Of a stretch of DNA of 64,000 nucleotides, positions 34,700 through 63,405 are shown piece after piece; the stretch's first letter is position 1, and every line of letters begins with the position of its first letter. Origin of the DNA: Selaginella tamariscina (taxonomy: Eukaryota > Streptophyta > Lycopodiopsida > Selaginellales > Selaginellaceae). The position numbers and the translations under genes were made by a program. The stretch covers positions 310,001 to 374,000 of the forward strand of contig PUQB01000225.1 of NCBI GenBank assembly GCA_003024785.1, in the 5' to 3' direction. The notes under the pieces were generated by a model, which saw nothing but the letters and a program-made list of their open reading frames with translations, did not search any database and was not told the origin of the DNA.

Positions 34700-35560
34700 A
34701 AATATTACTCCCTTCAACGAGGTATTTCCTTATCTTATTAAGGTTAACCTTTCCTTCTATTGTCTCTCCTTCCAATGTTTCCAAATCCACCACACCTTCG
34801 TCCTTTACAGATTTAACCCGAAAAGGGCCTATCCAGTTCAAATTAAACTTTGGCCTATTTCATCCACCTTTCCCCTGTACCAAAGGACGAGATCACCTAC
34901 CTTTATCTCTTTGCCTTTCCTTCGCCTATCTAGCCAAACCTTCCGCCTTCTCTGAATCGCCTGTATCGTCCACAGGGCATGCATTCTCCTCTCATCTAAC
35001 TTCTCTAGCTCTATTAAACGAGCTTCCAAAGACTCCTTCTCCCCCATCCTATATTGAATTGCTATTCTCAAGGATGGCACAATATACTCCATCGGAGTTA
35101 TAGCCTCCAATCCATACGCAAGCTTAAAAGGTGTCGTACCTGTAGTCACCTTATAGGCTGTTCTATAAGCCCATAATACTTCTGGTAACCTTTCATCCCA
35201 ATCCTTCTTATTTTCCTGAACCACCTTCCTTAAAACGTTTTTAAGGACTTTGTTTGTAGATTCAGCTTGTCCATTACCTTGTGGGTAATATGGTGTAGAC
35301 TTCTTATGTTTTATCACAAACTCCCTCATAAGCATTTCTATTGTTTCATTCACGAAATGCTTTCCTCTATCACTACAATTTCCTTAGGAATACCATAACG
35401 TACTATTATAGTATTATATATAACCTTCGCTGTATTATATGCATCAGCCTTTTTCATAGGCTCTGCCTCTACCCATTTAGTCATATAATCTGTTAAAACC
35501 AATATATATTGATTCCTTTTTGAACTTATAGGATTAACTGGTCCTATAAAATCCATTCCC
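34700..35560 (-). pseudogene. Integrase core and C-terminal module of element E
   Basis: [33 protein letters not shown] gives the first catalytic Asp. The second-Asp segment (IxDRGKHF) is broken by a frameshift near 35370. YYPQGNGQAESTNKVLKNVL gives the catalytic Glu near 35270. The GPF/Y-type module (WIGPFRVKSV, GVVDLETLEGE) lies at 34730-34835. Confidence 0.88.
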
Positions 35561-36254
35561 CATTTTTGAAAGGTTCCAATGGTAGAACTGGATTATAAGG
35601 TTGTATTTGTTTCTTTGGAGGCAATTGTGCACGTTGGCATTTATCGCATGCCTTACAATATCTATTTACATCTCTCCATAAAGTAGGCCACCATAACCCT
35701 GCCTGAAGGATTTTCCTTCCTGTTATTTCCTCTGCAAAATGTCCTCCTGCAAGGCCTGAATGAGCCTCTTTAAGAACCTCTGGGGCCTCTAAAGGATCCA
35801 CACACCTTCGTAATACCCCATCGGACCCTAGTTTATACAGCTTTCCTCCCACAAGAGAAAAGTGTCGTGTCCTCACGACAAAGAGCTTCCTTTCATCGGG
35901 CGTCTTATATGTAAGTGGTACTATTCCAGTGGCTAGATATTGTGTAATATGATCTAACCACCTTAATGGAACATCGACACGAAATAAACTGGCATCAGGA
36001 AAGTCATCCATAGTACGAATCGGAAGTTCGCCTGTTTTAATACGACTTAAATGATCAGCCTGTTCGTGTTGCTTTCCAGGTTTATGAATTATTTCAAAAT
36101 CATATTCCTGTAGAAGTAGGAACCACCTGGCTAACCTTCCTGTAAGTACCGGTTTATTAAGTAAATATAATAAAGCTTTATGATCCACAAAAAGTTTTAC
36201 TTTATTAGCCAAAAGATAATGTCTAAATTTGTGGATGGCATATACCATGCCCAA
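35544..36254 (-). CDS. RNase H distal part and integrase zinc domain of element E
   Basis: A 236-codon open segment. It starts in RNase H (MVYAIHKFRHYLL, LFVDHKALLYLL, IHKPGKQHEQADHLSR). It continues through a linker with RTRHFSLVGGKLYKLGSDGVLRRCV into the integrase HHCC domain (EAHSGLAGGHFAEEITGRKILQAGLWWPTLWRDV and CKACDKCQRAQLPPKKQ). This open part belongs to a larger pol polyprotein and is not a free-standing gene. Confidence 0.85.
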   Translation of the reverse strand: MGMVYAIHKFRHYLLANKVKLFVDHKALLYLLNKPVLTGRLARWFLLLQEYDFEIIHKPGKQHEQADHLSRIKTGELPIRTMDDFPDASLFRVDVPLRWLDHITQYLATGIVPLTYKTPDERKLFVVRTRHFSLVGGKLYKLGSDGVLRRCVDPLEAPEVLKEAHSGLAGGHFAEEITGRKILQAGLWWPTLWRDVNRYCKACDKCQRAQLPPKKQIQPYNPVLPLEPFKNGEWIL

Positions 36255-36278
36255 TGCTTCCTTTTCTGTAGTAGTAAT

Positions 36279-37216
36279 TTACTCTGCAGGTGTGAGCCTG
36301 CGACTAGCATAATAAATAGGACGATCCTTACCGTCCTCTTGCATTTGCGTAAGGACAGCTCCTATAGCAATATCAGAGGCATCAACTTGTACATGGAATT
36401 CCCGATCCCACTTGGGACTAACCAATATGGGGGCTTTAATAAGAGCCGTCCGAAGGTTATCAAATGCCTCTTGACACTCTAAAGTCCAAACATATGGCAC
36501 ATCAACCTTAAGCAAATCGGTTAAAGGTTTGGCGAGTTTAGCATAATGCTTTATGAACCGCCTATGGTAGCCTATTTTGCCTAAAAACCTTCGTAACTCC
36601 TTTATATCCTGTGGTGGTTGTAGGCTAAGGATAACCTTAACCTTGTCCTGATCAACCAATATTCCTTCCCTGCAAACCACATGTCCTAAAAGGACTCCTG
36701 ATTTGACAAAAAAATTACATTTTTCTGGATTTAAAGCAACTGAATTTTGTCTGCATTTCTGGAAACATTTTTCCAAACACTGTAAATGTTCCTGTTTTGT
36801 ACTATACACACTAAAGTCATCCATAAAGACTTTCATAAAATCTAAAAGGTATTCACGAAAGGTATCCGTTATAATTCTTTGAAACGTAAAGGGTGCATTA
36901 CATAAGCCAAAAGGCATAACCCTATAGGCATAGGCACCCCACGGACTTATAAAAGCGGTCTTATGTTGATCTGCTGGAGCTACCATCACCTGATTATATC
37001 CTGAAAAGCCATCCATAAAGGAATACATTTCATGGCCTGCGACATTATCCAGCATTTCCTCTGTGAAAGGAATAGGAAAATATCCTTAGTTGTAACATCA
37101 TTTAGCTTTTTATAATTGACACACACTCTTAGCTTCCCATTCTTTTTAGGGACGATCACGAGTGGTGACAACCATTGCGCTCCTTGTATAGGATATATAA
37201 AGCCAACCTTCAACAT
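36279..37216 (-). pseudogene. Reverse transcriptase and proximal RNase H of element E
   Basis: Fingers and palm: WLSPLVIVPKKNGKLRVCVNYKKLND (36986-37216), then after a one-base shift near 37060 MYSFMDGFSGYNQV, PFGLCNAPFTFQR and the catalytic FMDDFSVYS box. Next come the thumb (FLGKIGYHRRFIKHY) and the first RNase H strand (EFHVQVDASDIAIGAVLTQMQEDGKDRPIYYASR). A TAA near 36280 separates it from the next segment. The domain order and spacing match a complete Ty3 RT. Confidence 0.9.
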
Positions 37217-37812
37217 TTATCAATCTCCTCTTTCACCAATTTAGCATAGTTAGGATTCATCCTGTATGCACTTTGTTTAGCCGGTTGGCATCCCGGCAAT
37301 AATTGAATAGTGTGCATACATATCTCTGGTGGTATTCCTTTAAGATCCTGATAGGACCATGCAAATACATCCTTGTATTTGGCTAACAACATCAATCCTT
37401 TATCCCTAAAATCCGGATCCAATCCTTGAGCTATATTTAATATCTTAGGTTCCATTTCTGTACCTATATTAACTTGCTCTAAAGGATCGTTCGTGTAGAT
37501 ATATGTATATTCAGCAGGTTGTTCCTGCAAATTCATTTCATAAGGAACAGATTTATAAAATTTTTCCTGCAAGCCCAGATTGTTCTGTTCTTGTTCCTTT
37601 TGAAAGATGCTTTTCCTTTCCTTCAGAATAGCATATAAATCAATCTCTGCAAGAGCTTTTAGATCAGGATATGTTTTTAAAATTGCTCTTCCTCCTGATC
37701 ATCCAAGCCCCGCACCCAATCATACCCTTCCAATGCAACTGGCCGATCCTTCTGTGCTAAGTATCCCTTAGCATAGTATGAATATCGACCTTCAAGTCAC
37801 CTTGTTCTATTG
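37210..37812 (-). pseudogene. Protease-RT linker of element E
   Basis: An open part (37210-37572) reads IYTNDPLEQVNIGTEMEPKILNIAQ, DVFAWSYQDLKGIPPEICMHTIQLLPG, the usual region before the RT fingers. It matches the F sequence at about 10040-10400. The part at 37573-37812 is frame-broken linker. Confidence 0.75.
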
Positions 37813-38127
37813 TCATTTTTCCGAGCCCCAATCCTGCACCGCTTGGGCCACCTTAAGCCAAGGTCGTCCTAACAACATAGTATATGTTGCATCCTGTCCT
37901 TCCATTCGTAGGACAATTAAGGATATTTTGTATTTAAGTCCTTTAACGGATATAGTGACTGCTCTCACAATGCCCAATGGCCTTACACTTCGTTGATCAG
38001 CCATTTTAAGGTTAAATGGAGCCGGTTGGATAGGTCCCAAACCCATCTTTTTACATTCTCCTTCCTCAATAAAATTCACACCTGAACCTCCATCTATTAA
38101 TACTCTCTTTAACTTATTCCTTCCCAC
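37813..38127 (-). CDS. Aspartic protease segment of element E
   Basis: A 104-codon open segment starting in NKLKRVLIDGGSGVNFIEEGE (catalytic Asp within LIDGG) and ending LLGRPWLKVAQAVQDWG. It aligns residue for residue with 9530-9830 of element F. Upstream of it, only about 60 bases remain before the insertion point of giant element B. Confidence 0.82.
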   Translation of the reverse strand: MGRNKLKRVLIDGGSGVNFIEEGECKKMGLGPIQPAPFNLKMADQRSVRPLGIVRAVTISVKGLKYKISLIVLRMEGQDATYTMLLGRPWLKVAQAVQDWGSEK

Positions 38128-38187
38128 ATATACTGTGATGCAAGGAACATGTCCATCATAATCACCTTCATACAGTACTTCCTTATA

Positions 38188-38213
38188 TGCAAGTTGTAAC
38201 TAAAATGGGCATG
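38188..38213 (+). repeat. Left terminal inverted repeat of B
   Basis: TGCAAGTTGTAACTAAAATG followed by GGCATG. Paired with 52895-52920, with differences at positions 5 and 18. Confidence 0.85.
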
Positions 38214-38785
38214 GCTATAGTCCCATTTCCTAATAATTAGCAATTTTAGCTATTTAATTAGCATTTTCTAATATTAAAGGAATATTCTTTAGAATATATG
38301 TTTGAAAAGAGAATATTCTTTAGAATATTCTATTTTGTATTCTACCCTTTAATAAATTATAGCATTCATTGAACAAAAATTAATAACATTAAAAAAGTAG
38401 AATGTATTAAATTATATAATATATTCCTAATATAACAATTAAGAAGAGCATAAGAGGTACATTATATAAATATTGATGTTGTTATTAAATATTAATATTT
38501 AAATATAACATTATTAATTAAAAATTTGTAGTAGTAATAATATATATATAAAATCCTATAATAATATAGTCAATCTTCCATATCATTTTTTAAATTTATA
38601 TAGTTAAGTATACAATTTGGTACTATTATTAAAGAGTTTATAATAATTATGAATATTAAATATATGATATTTTATAATTTTGTAATTGCTTTAAGCTTCA
38701 GAAAACATACATTCCCTTGCAGTTTTGTTAATCGTGACTTTATCAACGCTTCTTGACATCCACCCATATCGAATGGATTTAACAT
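38214..38785. other. Left subterminal AT-rich region of B
   Basis: No gene. It has repeated AGAATATTC and GGAATATTC words and runs of TAATATT. It is conserved in A and C and could carry transposase-binding motifs. Confidence 0.65.
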
Positions 38786-41700
38786 TTATAAAACATGCTG
38801 GGTCTTTTTGATTGGGAGACCATGTTTTCTCTAGGCATCCATTATATCTTTCGCTCTCCTTCTCGTGTCGCCTTTTTTGTGGTTTGAACCATGCAACCTT
38901 AACAATACTATTTTTGTGATTACTTCAGGTGTGTCGATAATTTGACCCATCCAAATAGGCTGATTATATGACGCATCTGGAGTAATGAGAACCATCATTA
39001 GTTTTTGAAGATCCTTGCAGCAATCAAAGTATGCTTTAGGTTTTGGTTCCTTTGTCCAACAAAGTGTGGGTTTGCACTTCCACATCACTACTGGCTTCTA
39101 TGTCGTCTGTGCTCAGTGATGTCATTTCAATCTCCTCTCGCCACCTTGTTTTAGGCCAGAAAGGGTGTTGCAATTCTGTACTTGTGACAGTAGGCCCTTC
39201 CAACTCTCGAACAACAGTTCCCAATAGTTGACCACATGCTTATATAGTTCTGAGTAACCAGTTGCCTTATCAGAATTGGCATCGATTTTTGAACCCATGC
39301 CACATATTTTTTGATGCCATCAATAATAACCTCTTGTTCCTTGAGCTGGGCACTCAATGGAATAGGGTCTGGTTGTCCTTCTGGGAAGTGGCCTTTCCAT
39401 CCTCTCCACTTTGAAGAGCATTAAGCCCCTTTCGGTAACCACTCCTGCTCTGATGGCCGTAACTTGTACTGCATAATAGGTATACCATCTCGTATGGAGA
39501 AAAAGAATTGTAGCGGCACAAGGTGACCAACTAAAGAATCACTCCCTTCTTTTATATACTCCTTGAGAAATTTTTTGAGTCTGGCACCTCAGTCACAAGC
39601 AAAGCACAACTTTTTTGGAGATGCAATTTTCAAAAAGATTCATCATATGCGGTAAGGTAAGTGCACTTGTCCTTTTTGTAGAGTTGAGACCTTGCTGAAG
39701 AACGCATCAATATCTTCATGAGTGTGACCAACCATAAGAAACTGAGCGTGATTGTTTCAAAACACACCTTTTGGCAACAAGCATTGACAAGTATGCTAGC
39801 ACATATCTAGAAATAAAAGTAAGTATGAGCTTGAAAACCCTTAAGTAAAATGATTTACCTATTTTTGTTCTCGCCTGCACAATTATCCATCTGTAAAAGC
39901 AAATGACGAGGAAGCTTATTTGATGTGAGACACATGTACACTATTTGAGCTAGATCCCTCCACTTGAACCTGAACTTCTCAACAGGGCCATCTGTTTTTT
40001 GTGCAGGTTGCTGACAATGCCTCTCATATTCCCAAGTAGCCTCAAGTGCAGACGTGTTCATGAGAGCATTATGTAAAGGTTGAAGTGTTGTTTTCTTCAC
40101 TTTGAGATCACTGATAGGACTTGTCTGTGAGTGGGCTTCAAGGTTTCTGAAACACATGGCTAACGACCCAATAGTGAAATTGGAGTCGCTAGACCAATGT
40201 GGAAGTGAAAAGTGTCCATATGACTCACAACCGTGTCCATGTGTTAGCACACCTGTTCAAGAAATCGGAAGTTTCATGACATTTCCAAGGCACTTTGGTG
40301 TTGCAAAGAGCTTTGGAATGCTGGTCTTTGAATGATCCATCTTGTCATGGATCAAGCACAGGTACTCTGATGGGCGTGACACAGAAAGCATGCGGTGTGC
40401 ATAGTACTGAGACCGACAAGTTTGTTGCAATCATGTGGGCCTCCATCTTCTTTGAATGGTAGTGATCTCCACCAAGGTTTTTGCACAAGCCTCTGCAGCC
40501 TTCAATGATGTACAAGTGTCACACTTAGAAAAGCTAGAGTGTTTTGCAATCTCCACATCCTTAAAATGAGTATTCCATATGTTGTTGAAGGTACCAGTGC
40601 AGATTGCTTGGAGCCCCATCAAACTGAGGCACTTGTTCACATGTTCACACAGTTTCAATTGAGTGTAGATTGAAGGTAAAACCTTGAGATTTTCCCTGAC
40701 CCCTGCATTTGTGGTTCGGCATTTGTGAGGCATCCTGTCTGCATTTGCTTCCACAAAAGCCTTGAGTATCTCTATGGCTGCCATGATGTGAGAGCGGGTT
40801 TGACCAAGCCAGTGTTCCCATGAACTGAGGTTCGCGCTCCATCTAGCCACTCATCCCTCCGACGGTAGAACGTGGTCTTTGGGATCCCGTATATACTGTA
40901 CCAAGCTTTGAAGCAGATGGCCACCTTATTAAATACCATGGATGTACTCTGATAACCTGTGTCCGAGGCCATTCCATCAATACACCCAGTTAGTGCAGCA
41001 TATACAAACTCATGCCTTTGCTTTTGGGTGAGCATACGAAAGACATGTCTACATTGGGTAATTTCATTCCGGTCTGCCATCTGACAACACTTCTTCTTGC
41101 AACAGTCAATCGTGGAAATGCTCGTAACACTTTCGGAAGATGTAGGATCCATCTTTACCCTCTTGCTGAAACTTGCAGGGGAAGATCTACAACCCATGAA
41201 TCGCCTTTTTCTTACAATAGGACCAATGCAAGGAACCTCTTCAAATATGAGTTGTTCTTCCGGTTGTTATTATTGAAATCCAACCCAGAATATGTTGAAC
41301 CATCTTGCCGTCTTAATTCAGATGTTCGCCACCTCACGAGGGATCCAGGATACAATGTGCCATTAGGTGAAACCTCTGTCACAACTACACCCACGAAGTC
41401 GGACCCTAGTTTCTCTTCTGACACTGCTTCCATTGGATTTATAGCTGTGATGATGCCTCTTCCGACTTCAATCTCACGAAGAAAGAGAATCACCTCATCC
41501 ATCACAGCAGGCAAGCCATCATCTGGTAAACTCGTGCTACTATTTGTTTGTGACTCTGCATATTTTGTGTCAGCCTTGACTTCATCCAAATTCCACAATA
41601 CAGGAGAACCCTCCTCAAATTCCATTCCCAGAACCTCAACATGCTTGTAAATGGTGTTCACCCATACGTACACACAAGATCCTTGGGCAATATTGTGACA

Positions 41701-41790
41701 TGATGCATTATTATCTCGAACTTCCACAGTTCCAGTGCCAACTATCTCGTTGTTCCGAAGAAGACATACTTTATCTCCAGTATTAAACAT
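38786..41790 (-). pseudogene. Transposase-like gene of copy B (DUF7869-like), frameshifted
   Basis: Nearly identical to 54247-57221 in copy C, but broken by several one- to three-base indels, for example near 41265, 40800, 40440, 39590 and 39380-39430. The 52-nt GT-AG intron is at 39807-39858. All key motifs are present: the helix-turn-helix-like YGIPKTTFYRRRDEWLDG, KCDTCTSLKAAEACAKT, HDKMDH, DNCAGENKN and GHTHEDID. The proposed ATG is at 41790, 6 nt after the splice acceptor TTATGTGCAG. The C-terminal frame after EVITK is uncertain: the frame that gives VKVAWFKPQ, as in copy A, ends at 38786. Confidence 0.75.
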
Positions 41791-41938
41791 ATTGTCCTGC
41801 ACATAAATAATTGTATTATTTATGATATCTGTTTATGCAATATTTTAAAAATCTGAATTACGGTTACTTAATAATATGCATATGCAATAATACATAATTA
41901 TGTTTAGAGATATTCTCATGTTTGATTAATACAACTGA

Positions 41939-42582
41939 TGGGCGGGATTAATCCCGCCCACGAATCCCTCCGACGAGGAACGGTCGGCGGGATTAATCCC
42001 GCCGCCGACTCAACCCCTTCGGAGAGAGTCGGCGGGATTAATCCGCCGCCGACTCCCCCTTCGAGAGCCGGCGGGATTAATCCCGCCGCTCCCTCGATCC
42101 GGCGGGATTAATCCCGCCGGACTCCCTTCCTCCGTCGAGGAAGAGGCGGCGGGATTAATCCCGCCGGCTCTTCCTTGTCGGAGGAGTCCAAGGCGGGATT
42201 AATCCCGCCCACAATTCTTACGACGGGGAATGGGTGGCGGGATTAAACCCGCACATAACTCTCTCCAAACTATGATTTCAAAGAGATCTCGGGATAAATC
42301 CTGTCCCCAAATCTTTAAAACAGGGAAGTGGTGGCGAGATTAATCCCGCCACCCCTTCCCTGCCTCCTAAAATGGTTGGCGGGATTAATCCCGCCGACAA
42401 CTCTTTCTAATAAATTCTGGTAACTCTTCATCAGTTGAGAAGGTTATCGGACGGGATTAATCCCGCCACTCTTTTTCAGTGGCGGAGAAGCATTGCCCGG
42501 GAGATGGTGGCGGGATTAATCCCGCCACTTCTTCGAAGAGGCGAAAAAGAAATGGCCGGATTAATCCCGCCGCCCCGGTTAA
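41939..42582. repeat. Palindrome array 1 of B
   Basis: About a dozen GGCGGGATTAATCCCGCC palindromes and variants at 40-50 bp spacing, starting 150 bp upstream of the transposase-like ATG. It is about 170 bp shorter than the matching array of C (57374-58186), having lost whole units near 42050-42130. Confidence 0.93.
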
Positions 42583-43960
42583 CCTAGAATATTAAGTTAA
42601 AAGGATATTTAAACGGATAAATCCCTAACGGAATATATTATAATCCTAATGCATTTCTAAACCCCTAAATTGTAATTTTAAGAGAGAATGTAAGAGAGTG
42701 AATCTTTATAAGTATTTTTAAATTTGTTTATAATACTTACTTGTAAACAGCACTGAAGGCGCCGTGCTTTCCTATAAAGAATAGCACCCAATTTAATCTC
42801 GCTCCTGAGATGATCACTATGAAGAAAAAAGAAGATCTAAAGAGTGAAAAATACAGAAATGAAGAAACCCTTGCCGGAGAAAGAACCAGATCTGAATTTG
42901 AGTGGGAAATTAAATGCATTTTCAAATTTACATGTCAGACCGACAATACATATGTCAGAAATTCAAATTTTTTAAAAAGAACAGAAAATAAAATTTAAGA
43001 TGAGTTGACACAAATATCCGACACTCTGACATATATACTCTCCAGTTCCAATGAGTATTTTAAAATTGCATTTAATGTTATTCAAGTGATTCAAGCTGTT
43101 TAATATTACGAAATTTTAGACTATATTCTACATTCTTAGTATTCAAGTATATTTATATTATATATAATATATAAATATATACTTATACAATAAATAAATT
43201 GATATATTATTATGTATCATTTAAAATATATTCATAGTCTGTTTATTATTATTTTCTTAATTACTCGAGTATTTAGTTTTCATTTCCTAGTATCAATGGG
43301 ATATTCTTTAATATTTTATTAATATTTGAAGAATATTCTAATATTAAACCTGATTATCATAATTAAATTAGTCTTGTTCTTAATTATTGCAGTAATTATT
43401 CTACATTTGTATATATTAATGGGATTTTCTCAATTAATTTGTTATTATTTCAAGAATATTCATGTGTTAAACCTTATTATCAATATTAAATTAATACACA
43501 CTATGAACATTTTTAAATTATACATAATAATACATCATTTTATCTAATATATAGTCATATATAGTTAATAATATATATTTAATATCATTTCCTTAATTAC
43601 TTGAGTAATTAATCTTCTTTATATTAATGGGATATTCTTTATTATTTTCTTATTATTCCAAGAATATTCCAATATTAAACATGATTATGATAATTAATTT
43701 AGTTAATTATTTGAGTACTTAATTTACATTTGTATATATTAATGGGATTTTCTCAATTAATTTCTTATTATTTCAAGAATATTTCAATGTTAAACCTTTT
43801 TATCAATATTAAATTAATATATATTATTAAAACTATATATGGCTATATTAGATAAAATCATATATTATTATGTATAATTTAAATATGTTCCTAGTGTGTT
43901 TATTAATTTATTTTCTTAATTATTCGATGTTTGTTTTGCACACATATATAAACACAATCA
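42583..43960. repeat. AT-rich spacer with 331-bp tandem duplication (B)
   Basis: AT-rich DNA. From about 43255 to 43930 a unit of roughly 331 bp is repeated twice. Each unit holds two half-copies starting ATTAATGGGAT(A/T)TTCT and containing CAAGAATATTC and TTAAACC. No coding signal. Confidence 0.7.
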
Positions 43961-44158
43961 TAAATTTACACACGCATTACAAGAACTTACAAAAACACAT
44001 ATGCACACACATGCACAACCCTAAACCAAACTGAAGAATATGTTGCTTCTTTATTGAAAACATCATGTTCAACGCATGTATGATATATGTACTCAATCTG
44101 TGTGTATGTAACACATTGAATTTACATGTGTAATATTTATATTAAGCTTGTTGGGAGC

Positions 44159-44187
44159 AAACCCTAAACCCTAAACCCTAAACCCTA
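44159..44187. repeat. Telomere-like AAACCCT repeat 1 (B)
   Basis: Four tandem units of AAACCCT, the plant telomere-type heptamer. A matching tract is at 59778-59807 in copy C. Confidence 0.9.
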
Positions 44188-44623
44188 TATGTAACACAAT
44201 GAATTTACTCATGTAATATGTATGTATGTTGTGTGTATACACGTGTGCATGTATATATGTGTACTCTGTATGTATATATGTGTACTTTCTGTCTTCTCTC
44301 ATACATACACACCATGCATGATCCATGTTAATATGTACTGTCTCTCTCTCTCAAACATACACACCATGCATGATCTATAATATGTACTCGGTCTCTCTAA
44401 TATTATGTACTAATATGTATGTATGTCTGTGTGTATAATACACACCATGCATGATCCATATTAATATGTACTGTCTCTTCTCTCATATACTATGTATGTA
44501 TATCTGTGTATAATATGTGTAAGTATATATGTGTACTAATATATGCAATATGTACAAAAATAATTTTTCAACACTCTCTCTTCTCTCATACATACACACC
44601 ATGCATGATCCATCCTAAATCCA

Positions 44624-44650
44624 AAACCCTAAACCCTAAACCCTAAACCC
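44624..44650. repeat. Telomere-like AAACCCT repeat 2 (B)
   Basis: Three to four units of AAACCCT. Matching tract at 60247-60274 in C. Several TTTAGGGTTT words also occur at 44884-44975. Confidence 0.9.
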
Positions 44651-44974
44651 ATGTAATATGTGTGTATGTCTGTGTGTATACACGTTGTAATGTATATATT
44701 ATGTGTATTAATATATATGTGATACACATGAAACTTTAACACTCTCATGGACACACACATGTTAAAATCCCTGCATGATTTATATTTTTGAGGTGTATGT
44801 GATACACCCACGCACACGCACGCGCTAATAATATAATGAAAGAATATTCGTTTAGGGCGAATCTATATTTTTTATTCTTTTTAGGGTTTAAGTATATTCT
44901 CAAGAAGGAATATTCTATTAGGGTGATATATATATTTAATTCCTTTAGGGTTTAGGTATATTCTTAGGGTTCAA

Positions 44975-45017
44975 GAGGCGGCGGCTGTGAAATCGGCGGC
45001 GGCGGCTGTGCACACAG
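44975..45017 (+). other. Candidate 5' leader exon end (B)
   Basis: A GC-rich island (repeated GGCGGCGGCTGTG) inside AT-rich DNA ends in CACACAG followed by GTGAGATCTG, a good splice-donor context. Both element genes have a splice acceptor just before their ATG, so distant non-coding first exons are expected, and this is one candidate for the rightward gene. Same sequence in C at 60597-60639. Not proven. Confidence 0.25.
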
Positions 45018-45025
45018 GTGAGATC

Positions 45026-45056
<31 letters not shown>

Positions 45057-45278
45057 ATATGTATAGGAGTGTGCGTATAATTTTTTTTTTAGTTTTATCT
45101 CTCGCACACACACGCACACTCCTGTGTATGTATATGTGTGTCTGTATGTATTTATTTGTTTCGCTCACACACGCATACACACGATATACATATACACATA
45201 TATATATATTACCATATACATATATACATACATATATTATGTGTACCAGTATCTGTAAATTTTTTTTATTGATCTTGC

Positions 45279-45309
<31 letters not shown>

Positions 45310-45318
45310 CACACACAC

Positions 45319-45360
<42 letters not shown>

Positions 45361-46137
45361 CAGTATCTGTAAATTTTTTTTTATTGATCTATCTCTCCCA
45401 CACACACGCGCACTGCTTTACACACACACACACACACACACAGACATATATATATATATATATAATCAATGCATATTAACAAATAGTATACAACACTAGT
45501 TTATATATATGCTTATATATTCATAATATACACACATATATATATGTGTGTTTATCTGTATAATTTTATTTATTTATTAGTTTTATCTCTCGCACACACA
45601 CGCACACTCCTGTGTATGTATATGTGTGTGTGTGTGTGTTTGTTTATCTGTATGATTTTATTTGTTTCGCTCACACACGCATACACACAATATACATATA
45701 CACATATATATATACCTATATACATATATACATACATACAACACTAGTTTATATATATGCTTATATATTCACAGACTCTCTCTCTTTCTCTATAGATTAT
45801 ATATCTATATACACACATATATATGTGTGTTTATCTGTATAATTTTATTTATTTATTAGTTTTATCTTTGCACACACACGCACACTCCTGTGTATATATA
45901 TGTGTGTGTGTGTGTTTGTTTATCTGTATGATTTTATTTGTTTCGCTCACACGCATACACCGATATACATATACACACATATATACCTATGTACACACAT
46001 ATATTAGGTGTACCATACTGTATAAGTTTATTTATTTATCTATCTCTTGCACACACACGTACACTCCTATACATACATACATACATACATAATATATCAC
46101 ACCACATATAATATGTGGTGTTTTTATCTCGCTAAGC

Positions 46138-47690
46138 CCTCGAGCGGCGGATTAATCCCGCCGCTATATAGTTGGGGCCATGGCGGCGGGATTAATCCCG
46201 CCGCCGAGGCCTTCAGGCATGGGTGAGCGGCGGGATTAATCCCCGCGCCGAGGCCCTTCACGCAGGCTATGGGCGGCGGGATTAATCCCGCCGCTCTACG
46301 ACAAACCGAAGAGCGGCGGGATTAATCCCGTCGCCCATAGCCTGCGTGAGGGGCCTCGGCGGCGGGATTAATCCCGCCGCTCATCCATGCCCTGCGCGGA
46401 ATGCGGCGGGATTTATCTCGCCGGCAATGGCCTGTGTGAAGGTTCTAATGGGCGGGAATTAATCCCGCCGGATTCCGCGCAGGGCATTTACAGGGAATGG
46501 GCGGCAGGATTAATTCCGCCGCTCTTTCGGTTTGTCGTAGAGCGGCGGGATTAATCCCGCCGCCAGGGAATTCACGCAGGACATGAACGCCGGGATTAAT
46601 CCGGCCCACTCATGCCTTCGCGGAGGGCGGCGGATTAATCCCGCCGTTCATGTCCTGCGTGAATTCCCTGGGCGGCGGGATTAATCCCGCCCCCACCATC
46701 CCTGTTCAAAAATGCCGCAGCCAATATATATGTGTGAGCGCATGATTTACGAGAGGGCGGCGGGATTAGCCTCCGAACCTTCATTACCGGTGGCGAGATT
46801 AATCTCCGAACCTTCATTACCCCATTGGTATGTTGAATCAATCCCGACTACTCTGTCTGAGACGGAGAAGGTTTACAAAATACCAATGGAGGGAACCGAG
46901 AAGGGTGGTGGGATTAATTTTCCAATCCCTTAATCATGGTGGGCGGGATTAATCCGCCGCGTACGCATTCCTGCGCGGAATCGGGCGGGATTTATCCGCC
47001 GCCATTGGCCTGCCTGAAGGGCCTAGGCGGCGGATTAATCCCGCAAGATTCGCACAGGGCATTGGCGTTCGGCGGGATTAATCCGCCGACTAAGCCCGAG
47101 TGAAGGGCCTGGGAGGCGGGATTAATCCCGCCGAACGCCAATGCCCTGTGCGAAATCGGGCGGGATTTATCCCGCCGCCATTGGCCTGCCTGAAGTGCCT
47201 AGGCGTCGGAATTAATCCCGCCCGATTCCGCGCAGGGAATTGGCGTCCGGCGGGATTAATCCCGCCGCATAGGGATCGAGTGAAGGCCCTGGGCGGCGGG
47301 ATTAATCCCGCCGAGTCTTCAATGCCTGTTGGAGAAATGAATCTCGCCACCCTTCCCTTTTTCCTCCATTGGTGAGTTGGACCAATCCCAAACGTTTCTG
47401 TCTAAGACGTAGAAGGTTTACAACATACCAATGGAGGGGACTGGGAAGGGTGGCGAGATTCATTTAACCATCCCTTACATGGTGGGCGAGATTAATCCCG
47501 CCTCCTTTCTGGAGTCACTGAAGGGGTGTGAGAAATAAATCCTGCCCAGTTCTCTCTGAGACCGAGAAGGGTGGCAAGATTAATTCCGCACTCCCGTTCA
47601 AGGCCTCCAGAAAGGTGGCGAGATTAATCCCGCCCACTCTTTCAGGAGGCATTGAAGGGGTGGCGAGATTAATCCCGCCGCACCTTCCAT
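46138..47690. repeat. Palindrome array 2 of B
   Basis: Around thirty copies and variants of GGCGGGATTAATCCCGCC over 1.55 kb, lying upstream of the ParB-like gene. Spacers form larger inverted repeats: for example, spacer words GCCCATAGCCTGCGTGAG and their complement flank a central pair of palindromes. Many units in B lack one G or C compared with C. Confidence 0.95.
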
Positions 47691-47751
47691 GTGAATATAT
47701 ATGTGTATTAGTATATATAAGTTGCATATCTCATTTTATTTACTTTTATCA

Positions 47752-47865
47752 TCTCTTCATATTATTTCGAGTAAAAGCTAGGAATCTATGTAAAACTGTC
47801 CAGAGCTCTCTCTTCATATTATTTCGAGTAAAAGCTAGGAATCTATGTAAAACTGTCCAGAGCTC
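47752..47865 (+). repeat. 57-bp direct duplication in the gene leader (B)
   Basis: Two near-perfect 57-bp units (47752-47808, 47809-47865), each starting TCTCTTCATATTATTTCGAG and ending TGTCCAGAGC. Same in C at 63406-63519. Confidence 0.9.
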
Positions 47866-47936
47866 ACATTTGTGGTGGTTCTAAAACGAAATGTTATCTT
47901 TCTTTTGCACTAACACAAATGTGAGCTTCGGACAGT
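47851..47936 (+). promoter_or_regulatory. Long stem-loop in the leader of the ParB-like gene (B)
   Basis: Arms 47851-47874 (AACTGTCCAGAGCTCACATT, then TGTG) and 47913-47936 pair over 24 bp with two mismatches, loop about 38 nt. It lies 150 nt upstream of the proposed ATG. It could act in RNA or be a remnant insertion. Present unchanged in C. Confidence 0.6.
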
Positions 47937-48079
47937 TAATTACGTCTACTTCTCTCTGTGTATTATTTTTGTATATTCGGGTTTATACAAGTGTGTGTGC
48001 GTTTTTATATAATTTATATTTATAGTGTATTATTTTGCAGAAGGAAGATTTGATCAAACAAGGAGATCGAGTCATTAGT

Positions 48080-51000
48080 ATGGAGTCGTCGTCAAATTCT
48101 GGGTAAGAATTAAAATAAAATCTGTTATACTCGGATACTTGAACTAATCATTTTTGTATTCAGATGTGGAATTGAGGTGACATTAAAGTCAAGAGCAGGA
48201 GAAGAGATGGGCAGGGGGATTCTGGAATCAACTTGGCCATATTTTAAGATAAATGGGAAGCGCATTGGAGCAACCATGGCTGCTGTCAAATTAACCTCTG
48301 TCACATCTCATGGACAAGTAAAACAATGGAAAGTTGATTCGCTAGTCAAGCACCCGAAAGCAGGCTGCGAACCCAGATTGGACGATGCTCGACAGATATG
48401 CCTTGTTCCATCCAATGTCACGTTCTCGGATCCAGAGGTCGTCAGTTACAACATTAATCTCGGGTGGTTTTGTCGACTTGTGGATAATGACGTTCACGTG
48501 TTCACTAATGATGTTGACCTTGGAGTTCTTCTTCAACTCAACGAAAGCCCATCTATGGAGGGGATCCATCTGGATGTTTACTTCGAAGATCTTCAGACTC
48601 ATCGAGTAGGTGTATTGTCAGGAGATATTGTTTCACAATACAGAAAATCAGCAAGTGGAGCAATCTTCCCTCTTGACATTGAAGAAGAACACAGCGACAT
48701 CATAAGGGAGATTGAGAAGGTGGCTCGGTCTCAGGTTCTCTACAGATCACGTTCAATTTGCTTAGGAAGCTTCGGGAGCTGGAGCAGTGTGCCGAGAACA
48801 CTAGAACAGCTGCAGTCGGGGATCACACATGTTGATTCGGATCGCAAAAGAAAATCATCAATCGTTTTGTCAGCTGCACCTGTGGCATCTCATGCTGCAA
48901 TAAGTCACAAGGAAATGATGTTGGATGATAAGATTTATCCTTGTAGGGTTAAATATTGCAGCGTCAACCCAAACTTCAATTACAGGCCACTCAACCAGGA
49001 ACGTGTAGCTGAGCTCATGGAGAAGATGAAGGACGACAATTCTTATACCGTTCCACATAATGCTGTTTTGTGTCCATACTATGAAAGAAGGAAGGGTGCT
49101 GACAAAGTCTGGATCACAACACCAGAACAACTCATGAAGATTCAGACGGAGAATAAAAGATCTATCAAGTACTACATCATTAGTGGCCAGCACACAATAA
49201 CGGCAGCCCAACGACTTCTCGAAGAACACAACAAAGGAACGATGGCAACAAAACTTTCCGAGCATACCCGTGAGAAGCTGACAAAAAGATCGGCGTTTTT
49301 AGCTAAGCCGAATCTCACAATCGAGCAGTACCATAAGTTATCGGCGGAATGGGACGCTGCCGACACCAACCACTACAACAGCAAAATATGGGAGAAGTTT
49401 AAACACACGCGAGCCGTGTGGGAATCTCTTCAGCGACCACAAAGAGCTACCGCAGGGAATACACAATCTGCGGAATACCGGGTAAGCAAATTGTTTGGGC
49501 GGGATTTATCTCGCCGGTATATTAATCTGTCTTTTTCCTCAGAGAGTTGAAGAAATTGCAGCAGTTGATTTTGCCCAGGTGGGCGGGAAGGAAACATCAT
49601 TTCTGATGATGTTGATTTCTTGCCCCGAAGATAGGATCTTTGCCAAATGGTTGGGGATTATGGAATCCTTTTCAAAAGGAACACTGAAGAAGAAGCAGAC
49701 AAGTGAAGGGGAGCCCTCAGAAAAGTCTGCAAAGAAACCCAGTAAGACGCCGAAGGCTAAGTCTGTTCAATCTACAAAGGATGTAGACAACGATTTCAAG
49801 CTCACATGGTTGAAGCCTTTAAATGGAACAACGATGGAGGAGATGGAAGTCTTGGCTGATTTGGTGATCGATGGCAAACTACAAATCAATAACAGCAGCC
49901 CAACCTCTCCTTTTCATCTCAAGGCAATGGAGTTGAAGACGGTCAGGCATTTCAAGGAGTGGTTGGGAATACACTGCCACAAACTGGGTTGGACCTCGAC
50001 TTCAACATATGAAGAGGTTAGCAAATATTTGCATGTGACGAACGATGATATGCTTGTTGAATGGGTGAACCAATCGGAAGATCTAGGCAAGAATCTATTG
50101 CACGCCAACGCCAAAAAGGAGAACATTGGGATGACGCCTTCTCTTATGGCAGTCCTTCAGCAGCGAAGAACCGAATTGAACCTTATAAAGGAGGATGCTA
50201 CGAATCACGACAAGCCCTACAGATGTTTGTTGTTAGATTCGGAGACTTTATGGGGTAACATCACTGCTTGTAGGAAACCGTTTCAATTGTTCGTGATGGA
50301 TCGGCGGGTGTCAAAAAATCTTTCGACAGATAGGGCACTAGAGGATCTGGTGGAGAAACTTAGCCGTGCAAGCATATACATAGAAGGTATTTATTATTGA
50401 ATTCATGCTTGCGCTCTTCACTGATACCTACTTTTTCAGGTATTTATTTCTTGATTCTTGCTCATGTCACCGATACTTTTGCCTTCGCCTTCGCCAAGAA
50501 GAATAGACATCGTTGGACAGGATTTTATATGAACGATGCTAATCCCAAGTGCATTGATACTGTTGTTCACTTGGTTGTTAGGAATGCGCCAAACAATTTC
50601 AAGCTTCCAAATGACTGGCCAGGCATCTGTTTGCACTCCAACGGCCCTGAACCTCCATCCGATACACCGATAGGTATGAGTGACGTATTCGGCAATGTAC
50701 GTTATCCCAAACATTACAAGTCAAGCGGCACGGAGCATCGTCAACTTGATCAGGGGTCCTCACAGTGATGCGTGGGTTTTTGACTACTGCACTAGGGGGT
50801 CCGTCTTGAAGGAGTGTTACCTTCGGCATACATGTGTGTTTGCCGTTGAGAAGGATAAGACCATGGTTGAGGACCTGAACAAGTGGATAGATTGGGTCTC
50901 AACTGAGTACCCCAACGATTCCATAAAGGCGTATTTGAGAAAGTTCCCTCCAGATAAGTGCGATAGCTCTGAAGGTGAATCTGGTTCAATCTCGGAGTCT

Positions 51001-51186
51001 GAGAACGAACATCAATCAGATATTAGACCGGAAGTTATCTCGAGGAGTACAGAACATTCGCACACTCCAGGACCCATGGAAACATCAATAGAAGATGCAG
51101 AAGATCTTGAACCATCTCACAAGCGGCTTAGACCTTCTTCGCCTCATTCAGAAGGTAATAGCGAAGAAGAATTGATAATGAATTGA
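48080..51186 (+). CDS. ParB-like/methyltransferase-like element protein (multi-exon)
   Basis: Model: exons 48080-48102, 48164-49481, 49543-50386, 50440-50673 and 50726-51186. All introns are GT-AG (52-61 nt), giving 959 residues. Residues about 262-360 look like a ParB/sulfiredoxin-fold domain: NYRPL near 280, ELMEKMKDD, then YYIISGQHTITAAQRLL with GQH near 349. After a Lys-rich linker (about 490-530), residues 670-860 resemble a beta-class DNA methyltransferase with order IV then I: LFVMDRRVS near 700 where DPPY is expected, and WVFDYCTRGSVLKECY near 823-838 with FAVEKD near 846-850 as an FxGxG-type motif I plus acidic residue. Catalytic positions are degenerate, so activity is doubtful. The tail is acidic and Ser/Glu-rich with a KRLRP basic patch. 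The alternative model splices at 51154 into the next coding part (see findings). Confidence 0.6.
49482..49542 (+). other. Intron 2 of the ParB-like gene, carrying one palindrome unit
   Basis: A 61-nt GT-AG intron (GTAAGCAAAT...TTTTTCCTCAG) containing GGCGGGATTTATCTCGCC at 49498-49515, a two-mismatch copy of the array palindrome. Confidence 0.7.
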
Positions 51187-51390
51187 TAAAGTGATGAATA
51201 GTTGTAAATGAGTGTAACATAAGGCATTTTTGTATATTTCTTTTATATTTGTACAGAAAATAAATTCTCAAGGATTAATGAAGCTTTTAGTTCAAACATG
51301 GGTCACACATTAACAAGGTAAATAATATACCTTGATAATTTTAAGGTCAGCTAATTATCATTTTGCAGATGTAATGAAATAATTGAGAAC
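51187..51390 (+). other. Candidate linking exons and introns between the ParB-like and FCP1-like parts
   Basis: GT at 51155 and AG at 51256 would splice to 51257-51317 (open, 20 codons). A 51-nt GT-AG intron then leads to 51369-51414, and a 61-nt intron to 51476. All phases agree and the joined frame stays open. No promoter or polyadenylation signal is obvious here. Confidence 0.45.
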
Positions 51391-52585
51391 ATGGATTTTC
51401 AGCATTGCCATGAGGTAAGAGAGGGGTTTGGCGACAATTTTTGTGCCACATGTCAGAATGACAGAGTTCATGCAGGAAATGGATAATAATGCAGCTCAAA
51501 ACATCGTTACCATGGGGGCCACTTCAGTTTTTGCATCATCATTTTTATTGGCTTCAGTTCCGAAATCAATTTCTTCAGCGCATGCAATATCTGAATCTTG
51601 TAAGGATGATGTACAATTAAATGATGAAGGGATAGGCAACGAAATAGTGGCAACGGATAAATGTGAAAGGGAGCAAACAAGTGATTTGCAAAGTATTCAA
51701 GAGGCAACGCTATCTCATGTTACTCATGGCCATATTGTGTTGTTGGATGTCAATGGTGTTCTGCTTCATCGACAAAGGCCCGAGGATAGAAAAACAGAAA
51801 TCAAACAAGGAGATTTCATTCCTTGTCATGGTAAATTTCGATATGATATTATTTTTCGTCCAGGGTTGGATCGTCTCTTTCAAAAGCTTAAGGAGATGGG
51901 TGCGCTTGTGGGGATTTGGTCATGCATGCAGATTCATAACTTAACACCGCTGTTGAGTTTACTTAAGAAACATTGTAGTGTTGCAGAAGAGGTGATTCGT
52001 AAAGATTGGATTTTTGACCAGCGAATGTGTTATAAACCTCTCGAATTTCACAATATAGGAAATGAAAGCAAGCCATACTTCTTCAAGAATGAAAGAATAA
52101 TTGGGACTCATGGGGAGATCAGTCGCTTAAGGATAACGAAGAATGCACATATCTTAGTAGTAGACGACTCTCCTCAGAAGGCTATGCTCAACCAAAACAT
52201 TGCTTGTATTCATCCAATCACTTTCGATCCATATTCTGATATCGATATCATGGATGAGCTAGTGAACTACTTGGATATGTGCCTCAGAAAGAAGAATCTC
52301 GAAAATTTTTGTGAGCAGTATCCACCGTATCATACATTTCCTGAAGCTTTTCTTTCTCGTGATATTGAATTTTATAAAATGAAGGATAGCAACCGGGCGC
52401 TTTATAATATTATTCTTAAGGAACGTCAGTTTTTAGATGAGCCTTTATGCAGACCTGGTCTTATTACATCTTATGTATTAACAAGGATGGCAACTCCCAA
52501 TTGCATTCGTGAGAGTGTTAAGTGGTGGCAACAACATCAAGATATTGACCAAAATGATTTGATAATCCGGAGAGTGATGATTTAG
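51391..52585 (+). CDS. FCP1/NIF-type HAD phosphatase-like coding region
   Basis: The main exon 51476-52585 encodes about 370 residues. The HAD motif I region reads IVLLDVNGVLL, where the canonical FCP1 motif is DxDx(T/V): the second Asp is Asn. Later come FRPGLDRLFQKLKEMGALVGIWSCMQ (the usual RPGLxxFLxxL...WT segment), WIFDQRMC and the acidic motif ILVVDDSPQKAM. The DVNG form is one I associate with plant FCP1-like paralogs, some of doubtful activity. A short upstream exon 51391-51414 joins through a 61-nt intron (51415-51475). If independent, translation starts at 51391. If fused, it is the C-terminal third of the preceding protein. It lies inside the TIR element, so it is cargo or an element function. 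Confidence 0.68.
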
Positions 52586-52894
52586 ACAAAATGAAAAGAT
52601 TTCTTTGTATGATAGAAAGAAAGTATTTATAAAAAAATTAACATGTTGATAAGAAAATGATTTCATTTGTAATTATGTTTGATAGTATTTCTTCATTATT
52701 GTAAACTATTTTTAGAATAATATGAATATTCTAAGATATTTTAGGAATATTCCTTACTAAGTAAGGTTATTGAAGGATTAATTAATTAATTAATTAATAT
52801 TTAAGGCTTAATTACATATTAATTAAATGATTAATTAATAATTAAAACTTAAGTATTAATTAGTAATTTATTTTATATTCCCATTTTCACGTAT
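52586..52894. other. Right subterminal region of B
   Basis: AT-rich and gene-free. It contains GGAATATTCCTTACT and a TTAATTAATTAATTAATTAA run near 52778-52799. It presumably includes the 3' end signals of the rightward gene. Confidence 0.6.
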
Positions 52895-52920
52895 CATGCC
52901 CACTTTAGTTACAACGTGCA
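52895..52920 (-). repeat. Right terminal inverted repeat of B
   Basis: Its reverse complement starts TGCACGTTGTAACTAAAGTG and continues GGCATG, matching 38188-38213 at 24 of 26 positions. Confidence 0.85.
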
Positions 52921-53600
52921 TATAAACAATTATTTATGTGCAGGACAATATGTATAATACTGGAGATAAAATATGTCTTCTTCGGAACAACGAGATAGTT
53001 GGCACTGGAACTGTGGAAATTCGAGATAATAATGCATCATGTCACAATATTGCCCAAGGATCTTATGTGTACGTATGGTGAACACCATTTTCAAGCATGT
53101 TGAGGTTCCGAGAATGGAATTTGAAGAGGTTTCTCCTATATTGTGGAATTTGGATGAAGTCAAGGCTGACATAGAATATACAAAGTCACAAACAAATAGT
53201 AGCACGAGTTTTTCAGATGATGGCTTGCCTGCTGTGATGGATAAGGTGATTCTCTTTCTTTATGAGATTGAGGTTGGGAGAGGCATCATCACAGCTATAA
53301 ATCCAATAGAAGCAGTGTCAGAAGAGAAACTAGGGTCCGACTTCGTGGGTGTAGTTGTGACAAAGGTTTTACCTAATGGCACTTTGCATCCTGGATCCCT
53401 CGTGAGGTGGCGAACATCTGAATTAAGACAGGAAGATGGTTCAACATATTTTGGGTTGAATTTCAATAATAACAACCCGAAAGAACAACTCATATTTGAA
53501 GAGGTTCCTTGCATTGGTCCTATTGTAAGAAAAAGGCGATTCATGGGTTGCAGATCTTCCCCGCAAGTTTCAGCAAGAGGGTCAAGATGGATCCTACATA
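52921..53600 (+). pseudogene. Fragment D: 5' part of another transposase-like gene
   Basis: Plus-strand copy of the first roughly 220 codons (ATG at 52950), from TGDKICLLRNNEIVGTGTVEI to RRFMGCRSSP. It is cut off at GATCCTACA where element C begins. It differs from A, B and C at many positions, so it is an independent older copy. It starts right at the end of B and stops right at the start of C. Confidence 0.85.
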
Positions 53601-53626
53601 TGCAAGTTGTAACTAAAATGGGCATG
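53601..53626 (+). repeat. Left terminal inverted repeat of C
   Basis: Identical to 38188-38213. Confidence 0.85.
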
Positions 53627-54201
53627 GCTATAGTCCCATTTCCTAATAATTAGCAATTTTAGCTATTTAATTAGCATTTTCTAATATTAAAGGAATATTC
53701 TTTAGAATATATGTTTGAAAAGAGAATATTCTTTAGAATATTCTATTTTGTATTCTACCCTTTAATAAATTATAGCATTCATTGAACAAAAATTAATAAC
53801 ATTAAAAAAGTAGAATGTATTAAATTATATAATATATTGCCTAATATAACAATTAAGGAAGAGCATAAGAGGTACATTATATAAATATTGATGTTGTTAT
53901 TAAAATATTAATATTTAAATATAACATTATTAATTAAAAATTTGTAGTAGTAATAATATATATATAAAATCCTATAATAATATAGTCAATCTTCCATATC
54001 ATTTTTTAAATTTATATAGTTAAGTATACAATTTGGTACTATTATTAAAGAGTTTATAATAATTATGAATATTAAATATATGATATTTTATAATTTTGTA
54101 ATTGCTTTAAGCTTCAGAAAACATACATTCCCTTGCAGTTTTGTTAATCGTGACTTTATCAACGCTTCTTGACATCCACCCATATCGAATGGATTTAACA
54201 T
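53627..54201. other. Left subterminal AT-rich region of C
   Basis: Same as 38214-38785 with a few single-base differences. No gene. Confidence 0.65.
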
Positions 54202-54246
54202 TTATAAAACATGCTGGGTCTTTTTGATTGGGAGACCATGTTTTCT

Positions 54247-57221
54247 CTAGGCATCCATTATATCTTTCGCTCTCCTTCTCGTGTCGCCTTTTTTGTGGTT
54301 TGAACCATGCAACCTTAACAATACTATTTTTTTGATTACTTCAGGTGTGTCGATAATTTGACCCATCCAAATAGGCTGATTATATGACGCATCTGGAGTA
54401 ATGAGAACCATCATTAGTTTTTGAAGATCCTTGCAGCAATCAAAGTATGCTTTAGGTTTTTGGTTCCTTTCCAACAAAGTGTGGGGTTTGCACTTCCACA
54501 CACTACTGGCTTCTATGTCGTCTGTGCTCAGTGATGTCATTTCAATCTCCTCTCGCCACCTTGTTTTAGGCCAGAAAGGGTGTTGCAATTCTGTACTTGT
54601 GACAGTAGGCCCTTCCAACTCTCGAACAACAGTCTCCCAATAGTTGACCACATGCTTATATAGTTCTGAGTAACCAGTTGCCTTATCAGAATTCTTTGGC
54701 ATCGATTTTTGAACCCATGCCACATATTTTTTGATGCCATCAATAATAACCTCTTGTTCCTTGAGCTGGGCACTCAATGGAATAGGGTCTGGTTGTCCTT
54801 CTGGGAGAAGTGGCTTTCCATCCTCTCCACTTTTGAAGAGCATTAAGCCCTCTTTCGGTAACCACTCCTGCTCTGATGGCCGTAACTTGTACTGCATAAT
54901 AGGTATACCATCTCGTATGGAGAAAAAGAATTGTAGCGGCACAAGGTGACCAACTAAAGAATCACTCCCTTCTTTTATATACTCCTTGAGAAATTTTTTG
55001 AAGTCTGGCACCTCAGTCACAAGCAAAGCACAACTTTTTTTGGAGATGCAATTTTCAAAAAGATTCATCATATGCGGTAAGGTAAGTGCACTTGTCCTTT
55101 TTGTAGAGTTGGAGACCTTGCTGAAGAACGCATCAATATCTTCATGAGTGTGACCAACCATAAGGAAACTGAGCGTGATTGTTTCAAACACACCTTTGGC
55201 AACAAGCATTGACAAGTATGCTAGCACATATCTAGAAAATAAAAGTAAGTATGAGCTTGAGAAACCCTTAAGTAAAATGATTTACCTATTTTTGTTCTCG
55301 CCTGCACAATTATCCATCTGTAAAAGCAAATGACGAGGAAGCTTATTTGATGTTGAGGACACATGTACACTATTTGAGCTAGATCCCTCCACTGAACCTG
55401 AACTCTCAACAGGGCCATCTGTTTTTTGTGCAGGTTGCTGACAATGCCTCTCATATTCCCAAGTAGCCTCAAGTGCAGACGTGTTCATGAGAGCATTATG
55501 TAAAGGTTGAAGGTGTTGTTTCTTCACTTTGAGATCACTGATAGGATTGTCTGTGAGTGGGCTTCAAGGTTTCTGAAACACATGGCTAACGACCCAATAG
55601 TGAAATTGGAGTCGCTAGACCAATGTGGAAGTGAAAAGTGTCCATATGACTCACAACCGTGTCCATGTGTTAGCACACCTGTTAAAGAAATCGGAAGTTT
55701 CATGACATTTCCAAGGCACTTTGGTGTTGCAAAGAGCTTTGGAATGCTGGTCTTTGAATGATCCATCTTGTCATGGATCAAGCACAGGTACTCTGATGGG
55801 CGTGACACAGAAAGCATGCGGTGTGCATAGTACTGAGACCGACAAGTTTGTTGTGCAATCATGTGGGCCTCCATCTTCCTTTGAATGGTAGTGATCTCCA
55901 CCAAGGTTTTTGCACAAGCCTCTGCAGCCTTCAATGATGTACAAGTGTCACACTTAGAAAAGCTAGAGTGTTTTGCAATCTCCACATCCTTAAAATGAGT
56001 ATTCCATATGTTGTTGAAGGTACCAGTGCAGATTGCTTGGAGCCCCATCAAACTGAGGCACTTGTTCACATGTTCACACAGTTTCAATTGAGTGTAGATT
56101 GAAGGTAAAACCTTGAGATTTTCCCTGACCCCTGCATTTGTGGTTCGGCATTTGTGAGGCATCCTGTCTGCATTTGCTTCCACAAAAGCCTTGAGTATCT
56201 CTATGGCTGCCATGATGTGAGAGCGGGTTTTGACCAAGCCAGTGTTCCCATGAACTGAGGTTCGCGCTCCATCTAGCCACTCATCCCTCCGACGGTAGAA
56301 CGTGGTCTTTGGGATCCCGTATATACTGTACCAAGCTTTGAAGCAGATGGCCACCTTATTAAATACCATGGATGTACTCTGATAACCTGTGTCCGAGGCC
56401 ATTCCATCAATACACCCAGTTAGTGCAGCATATACAAACTCATGCCTTTGCTTTTGGGTGAGCATACGAAAGACATGTCTACATTGGGTAATTTCATTCC
56501 GGTCTGCCATCTGACAACACTTCTTCTTGCAACAGTCAATCGTGGAAATGCTCGTAACACTTTCGGAAGATGTAGGATCCATCTTTACCCTCTTGCTGAA
56601 ACTTGCAGGGGAAGATCTACAACCCATGAATCGCCTTTTTCTTACAATAGGACCAATGCAAGGAACCTCTTCAAATATGAGTTGTTCTTCCGGGTTGTTA
56701 TTATTGAAATCCAACCCAGAATATGTTGAACCATCTTGCCGTCTTAATTCAGATGTTCGCCACCTCACGAGGGATCCAGGATACAATGTGCCATTAGGTG
56801 AAACCTCTGTCACAACTACACCCACGAAGTCGGACCCTAGTTTCTCTTCTGACACTGCTTCCATTGGATTTATAGCTGTGATGATGCCTCTTCCGACTTC
56901 AATCTCACGAAGAAAGAGAATCACCTCATCCATCACAGCAGGCAAGCCATCATCTGGTAAACTCGTGCTACTATTTGTTTGTGACTCTGCATATTTTGTG
57001 TCAGCCTTGACTTCATCCAAATTCCACAATACAGGAGAACCCTCCTCAAATTCCATTCCCAGAACCTCAACATGCTTGAAAATGGTGTTCACCCATACGT
57101 ACACACAAGATCCTTGGGAAATATTGTGACATGATGCATTATTATCTCGAACTTCCACAGTTCCAGTGCCAACTATCTCGTTGTTCCGAAGAAGACATAC
57201 TTTATCTCCAGTATTAAACAT
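54247..57221 (-). CDS. Transposase candidate of the giant element (DUF7869-like), near intact
   Basis: Two exons, 57221-55286 and 55231-54247, with a 54-nt GT-AG intron at 55232-55285. The ATG (MFNTGDKVCLL) follows the acceptor TTATGTGCAG by 6 nt. In order: an SH3-like DUF8039-type N terminus; CKKKCC and CRHVF cysteines; a helix-turn-helix-like YGIPKTTFYRRRDEWLDG; a zinc-type cluster KCDTC with H and C downstream; then an RNase-H-like domain with candidate acidic triad HDKMDH (near 55772), QMDNCAGENKN (near 55315) and GHTHEDID (near 55140). The last pattern is the hallmark I associate with DUF7869. About 970 residues in all. A one-base deletion near 55545 (AGGATTGT against AGGACTTGT in B) shifts the frame, and a second shift near 54330 probably alters the last 30 residues. 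Confidence 0.7.
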
Positions 57222-57373
57222 ATTGTCCTGCACATAAATAATTGTATTATTTATGATATCTGTTTATGCAATATTTTTAAGAAATCTGAATTACGGTTAC
57301 TTAATAATATGCATATGCAATAATACATAATTATGTTTAGAGATAATATCTCATGTTTGATTAATACAACTGA

Positions 57374-60647: not shown

Positions 60648-60678
<31 letters not shown>

Positions 60679-60900
60679 ATATGTATAGGAGTGTGCGTAT
60701 AATTTTTTTTCTTAGTTTTATCTCTCGCACACACACGCACACTCCTGTGTATGTATATGTGTCTGTATGATTTATTTGTTTCGCTCACACACGCATACAC
60801 ACGATATACATATACACATATATATATATATACCTATATACATATATACATACATATATTATGTGTACCAGTATCTGTAAATTTTTTTTATTGATCTTGC

Positions 60901-60991
<91 letters not shown>

Positions 60992-63345: not shown

Positions 63346-63405
63346 TGAATATATATGTGTATTAGTATATATAAGTTGCATATCTCATTTTATTTACTTT
63401 TATCA

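Follow-up and report, generated by a model that had tools for sequence, protein, structure and literature searches.

A DUF7869-bearing DNA transposon of about 14.7 kb in Selaginella tamariscina that best fits published descriptions of Sola

The sections of the literature on Sola DNA transposons that bear on this work describe a DDD transposase, 4-bp target duplications, terminal repeats of 11-1124 bp and occurrence in moss; most of these elements are 2-9 kb long, and some exceed 15 kb (PMC10741241). Physcomitrella Sola1 appears in a table of PMC9033089, and the relevant part of PMC6890710 annotates Sola as 0.06% of the C-fern assembly. Here we describe an element of about 14.7 kb found in a 64,000-nucleotide stretch of Selaginella tamariscina (contig PUQB01000225.1 of GCA_003024785.1; hereafter the window, G000:C533:310001-374000). 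This element is probably an autonomous-type cut-and-paste DNA transposon with a DUF7869 DDD transposase, and among the groups considered it is Sola, as described, that it fits best.

The window holds one full-length copy (B; 38187-52921, forward strand; 14,735 bp) and two truncated ones, A (1-4479, reverse strand; left part only, the rest cut off by the window start) and C (53600-64000, forward strand; cut off by the window end, its contig stopping inside the right terminal repeat). Copy B is bounded by 27-bp inverted repeats, ATGCAAGTTGTAACTAAAATGGGCATG on the left (38187-38213, forward strand) and ATGCACGTTGTAACTAAAGTGGGCATG on the right (52895-52921, reverse strand), which agree with each other at 25/27 positions and share the sequence ATGCA(A/C)GTTGTAACTAAA(A/G)TGGGCATG. 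A preliminary description had noted that the three copies have a terminus in common, and the left terminus is indeed identical in A (4453-4479, reverse strand), B and C (53600-53626); the inverted match between the ends of B also stood, although the ends are 27 rather than 26 bp long, each extending outward by one more base. Copy C lies within a piece of the transposase gene of a fourth copy (52922-53599, forward strand; 94-95% identity with the corresponding genes in A, B and C; native site ACAT|CTTCC), and intact copies read GATCCTACAT|CTTCC at the same place. Because the target homology around C reaches TACAT and breaks off directly before ATGCA, C fixes the outermost base of the element; the 4-bp duplications considered below likewise place this base within the element, giving ends of the form AT...AT. 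As had been remarked, these ends do not begin with CACTA or CAG.

The letters TATA do stand on both sides of B (38184-38187 and 52921-52924), as previously pointed out, and would favor reading B as one clean insertion that duplicated TATA. That history is hardly credible: on its left B adjoins gypsy-like pol DNA (alignment to 38169, 17 bases before the element end), on its right it borders a stretch of transposase gene from another copy (52922-53599), and the four bases adjoining the corrected ends are TTAT and ATAA. TATA was accordingly rejected as a target site.

A genome-wide search for the ends, as proposed in the preliminary description, was run on the assembly (300.7 Mb, 1391 contigs) with the 27-bp patterns at up to one mismatch and with reversed patterns as a control. 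It returned 1755 left and 1534 right ends and none for either reversed pattern, so the ends are not a product of chance. A 213-bp left-end query gave full-length matches at 100% identity (rounded) in 40 of 41 listed cases, the best 40 of 761 candidates being scored; 282 bp of AT-rich DNA from the right end gave no matches, and the 27-bp pattern was used in its place. Among 86 left ends, 42 had an inward-facing right end within 40 kb, 27 of them at 13.65-15.09 kb. The element is present in more than 1000 copies and may make up roughly 3-8% of the assembly, a figure obtained by arithmetic from the end counts rather than by measurement. Identity to B across the rightmost 5 kb was 98.9-99.9% in 16 fetched copies, of which four were partial. 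Ages are uneven, as the B-C and A-C divergences exceed those between B and the 16 fetched copies: self-comparison of the window gave 97.4-97.6% identity between B and C over long stretches and about 91-96% between A and C, so A is older. Elsewhere, a 1.43-kb piece of the right part of the element forms four tandem repeats (L023, G000:C554).

We then compared the flanks of full-length copies for target duplications. A first set comprised 18 regions, 10 of which contained a right-type end; one of these (C324) was wrongly oriented, leaving nine, while the remaining eight regions either ran into the end of a contig or lacked a recognisable right end. A second set of 20 copies, picked before their flanks were inspected, came from pairs of opposed ends that lay 13.65-15.09 kb from each other within the first 100 listed ends of each type. 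There were 27 such pairs: two belonged to copies of the first set, one involved a second left end of a copy in use and four were not fetched. Exact 4-bp repeats flank 5/9 copies in the first set (ATGT, AAGA, ATTT, ATGA and ACAG) and 10/20 in the second, where shuffled pairing of flanks averaged 0.68 and never gave more than 5 in 2000 shuffles. Overall, 15/29 copies carry such a duplication, of varied sequence, and none of the 20 copies in the second set had an exact repeat of 5-12 bp. Joined flanks matched an uninterrupted site in three of the five duplication-bearing copies given to this test: the empty site of C596 is matched by five transposase-gene copies, that of C452 at 86%, and that of C147 weakly, at 72% with 22 gaps. 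In the same search the joined flanks of C960 matched only themselves, as did those of C999 and C658 (both lacking a duplication), and those of C982 matched only themselves and surrounding local repeats. Flanks of 30-60 bp fell within the element itself in 5/66 cases, and C1066, whose right flank is outside the 66, is also followed by transposase-gene DNA; as this proportion is not clearly above the element's share of the genome, we claim no preference for self-targeting.

The ends and duplications bear directly on whether the element could be a divergent member of CACTA, hAT, Mutator, PIF/Harbinger, Tc1/mariner or Ginger, which we regard as very improbable. CACTA elements are likewise large plant elements with short terminal inverted repeats and extra sequence beside the transposase, and a weak match to Transposase_23 (TNP1/En/Spm) was seen near the N-terminus of our protein, below cut-off (E 0.26; E 0.0029 in the relative P0004). 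Against this, the ends begin with ATGCA instead of CACTA or CACTG, the duplication is 4 bp instead of 3, and no CACTA catalytic family was matched. The 4-bp length, together with the lack of exact 5-12 bp repeats in the 20 copies, also speaks against hAT (8 bp) and Mutator-like elements (7-12 bp); PIF/Harbinger duplicates 3 bp (TAA/TTA), and Tc1/mariner duplicates TA, whereas the repeats here vary in sequence. Ginger was set aside because its TG...CA ends differ from AT...AT; no integrase family was found in Pfam scans of two transposase open reading frames (ORFs) or P0003, and integrases occur among the weak fold matches, as expected of any RNase H-like core.

The transposase gene is best delimited in copy C (54146-57218, reverse strand), where the ORF at 54247-55227 matches PF25273 (E 2.3e-25) and tblastn with a 1069-amino-acid relative is collinear; the gene probably has one short in-frame intron, and its frame changes near 55350-55560. 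Coordinates transferred from C place the gene of B at approximately 38733-41805 (reverse strand; 97.6% B-C identity over 38185-42252), where the ORF list has no single long frame. Relatives are about 950-1070 amino acids long; DUF7869 was found in moss proteins, those of Physcomitrium among them, and in many unnamed public sequences. Three Asp motifs are conserved in the protein, for which an RNase H-like core is predicted; Asp419, Asp544 and Asp586 are the predicted catalytic candidates. The C-terminal part of the protein shows one substitution in ten copies. In the predicted fold, the core and the order of its acidic residues would correspond to those of Mos1 mariner and SETMAR; the protein differs from these in its much greater length, with additional domains at both the N- and the C-terminus, and in a duplication of 4 bp rather than 2 bp. 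The earlier suggestion of a giant DNA transposon with terminal inverted repeats, whose candidate transposase is encoded by a DUF7869-type gene, thus agrees with the ends and length of the element, with its 4-bp duplications and empty sites, and with the predicted fold and the conserved acidic residues of the protein.

Several observations weigh against this picture. The DDD assignment is based on motif order and predicted strands, and Asp422 is equally conserved (51/51). Foldseek alone gave no match at E < 0.001 (best transposase Tn5, E 0.19), VIA values are only slightly over the stated background of 7-8, and superposition on Mos1 is loose (root-mean-square deviation 7.8). No movement of the element has been observed. 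The duplication is missing in 14/29 copies, and also in B and its counterpart in C641, both outside the 29. In addition, C46 and C128 have one common 30-bp left flank and different right flanks, and C641 repeats the B-C junction of the window, but B has another left flank there. These flank mismatches indicate misjoins or recombination between near-identical copies, which points to such events as the source of at least some duplication-less copies; copy B looks like one of them.

Comparison with the published accounts of Sola was made by description. On that basis the element resembles Sola in its DDD transposase (by prediction only), 4-bp duplications, variable termini (27 bp here), size within range and occurrence in moss, which weakens the earlier statement that no named plant superfamily fits (PMC10741241). 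It differs in that palindrome arrays, a second constrained gene and more than 1500 ends in one genome are unmentioned in the portions of the Sola descriptions available, and in that most Sola elements measure 2-9 kb. An unlikely but by no means negligible alternative is that DUF7869 elements form a separate plant DNA-transposon superfamily, sharing the 4-bp cut and DDD motif with Sola by convergence or distant descent. Our literature search found no paper on DUF7869 or PF25273, nor any transposon paper for the S. tamariscina genome, and Pfam scans of the transposase and P0001-P0006 gave no transposase family over the curated cut-off. This alternative must nonetheless contend with the match to the Sola description in duplication length, DDD motif, size, ends and moss occurrence, and with the co-occurrence of Physcomitrium DUF7869 proteins and a listed Physcomitrella Sola1 (PMC9033089), which may or may not be the same. 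Filing the element as Sola-like, by description, is the most economical reading.

Beyond the transposase, copy B carries an accessory gene region of no recognised family (48177-51186, forward strand; ORFs 48177-49550, 49495-50400 and 50680-51186) and an ORF with a NIF (CTD-phosphatase-like) domain (51428-52585, forward strand; PF03031, E 6.2e-11). We counted codon positions of variable sites among 17 copies, with ORFs not singled out beforehand and small numbers throughout. Third positions account for 11/13 variable sites in the second and third accessory ORFs combined, and this part of the gene seems to be under coding constraint; the proportion is 7/19 in ORF 48177-49550. Only 5/15 were third positions in the phosphatase-like ORF, so no constraint is seen there. 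The complex cargo proposed earlier therefore holds for part of one extra gene and not for the phosphatase-like frame. Searches of the three accessory ORFs against Pfam, PHROGs and NCBIfam gave nothing or chance-level matches (E 0.12 or worse); for ORF 48177-49550, comparison with PDB sequences yielded a single match at chance level (E 0.51) and a homologue search nothing at E 0.001.

Both genes adjoin arrays of an 18-bp palindrome, GGCGGGATTAATCCCGCC, counted with up to three substitutions. In B these lie at 41941-42571 (13 units, just upstream of the transposase gene) and 46145-47679 (23 units, upstream of the right-hand gene), in A at 216-1074 (14 units), and in C at 57376-58179 (16 units) and 61786-63333 (25 units); five shuffles of the window contained none. 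Spacing is mostly 39-47 bp, and the two array stretches measured are 57% G+C with CpG ratios of 1.07-1.27, whereas G+C is 19-45% in the other measured stretches of B. A lone variant at 49498-49515, within the accessory gene where two ORFs overlap, could be the origin of the arrays or a chance occurrence. The half-site GGCGGGA presumably recalls E2F sites, and the motif GQHTITAAQRLLE in the accessory reading frame is one that we take to recall ParB-type domains. It is conceivable, if quite improbable, that DUF7869 elements are a plant superfamily of their own in which an accessory DNA-binding protein would act on the arrays as a bacterial partition protein does on its sites, for control or maintenance of the element; because the predicted structure of ORF 48177-49550 is uninformative (predicted local distance difference test score, pLDDT, 33), the ParB-like idea comes from this motif.

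Returning to the Sola-like reading, the DUF7869 protein would be a DDD transposase of predicted RNase H fold that probably recognises the 27-bp ends, excises the element and integrates it into a target cut with a 4-bp stagger; the duplications are observed, and the biochemistry is deduced. The element would represent a large form in which GC-rich palindrome arrays lie next to two oppositely directed genes, and the arrays most likely regulate its transcription.

Other repeats were also observed. Two identical copies of a 57-bp unit occupy 47752-47865, and the plant telomere repeat AAACCCT occurs in short runs inside the element (44159-44187 and 59778-59807). Two related segments in opposite orientation (34735-38169 and 9468-12817) share about 74% identity; one contains gypsy-like pol domains, and the left end of B falls just past one of them. 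Three copies of a dispersed repeat, each about 0.5 kb long, are present (6663-7207, 15096-15627 and 30123-30666), and a relative of it was hit by a transposon copy in contig C147. Separately, plastid psaA (L074) compared with solved PsaA shows many C-to-U-reversible changes, such as Ser for Phe/Leu and Arg for Trp (not counted); dense C-to-U editing is typical of Selaginella.

With these results DUF7869, a domain whose function is unknown, gains a concrete candidate role, that of a transposase, and becomes linked to a set of defined ends, to a 4-bp cut in the target and to a recent burst. The near-identical copies offer a practical system in which to study a class of DNA transposon described as uncommon in flowering plants.
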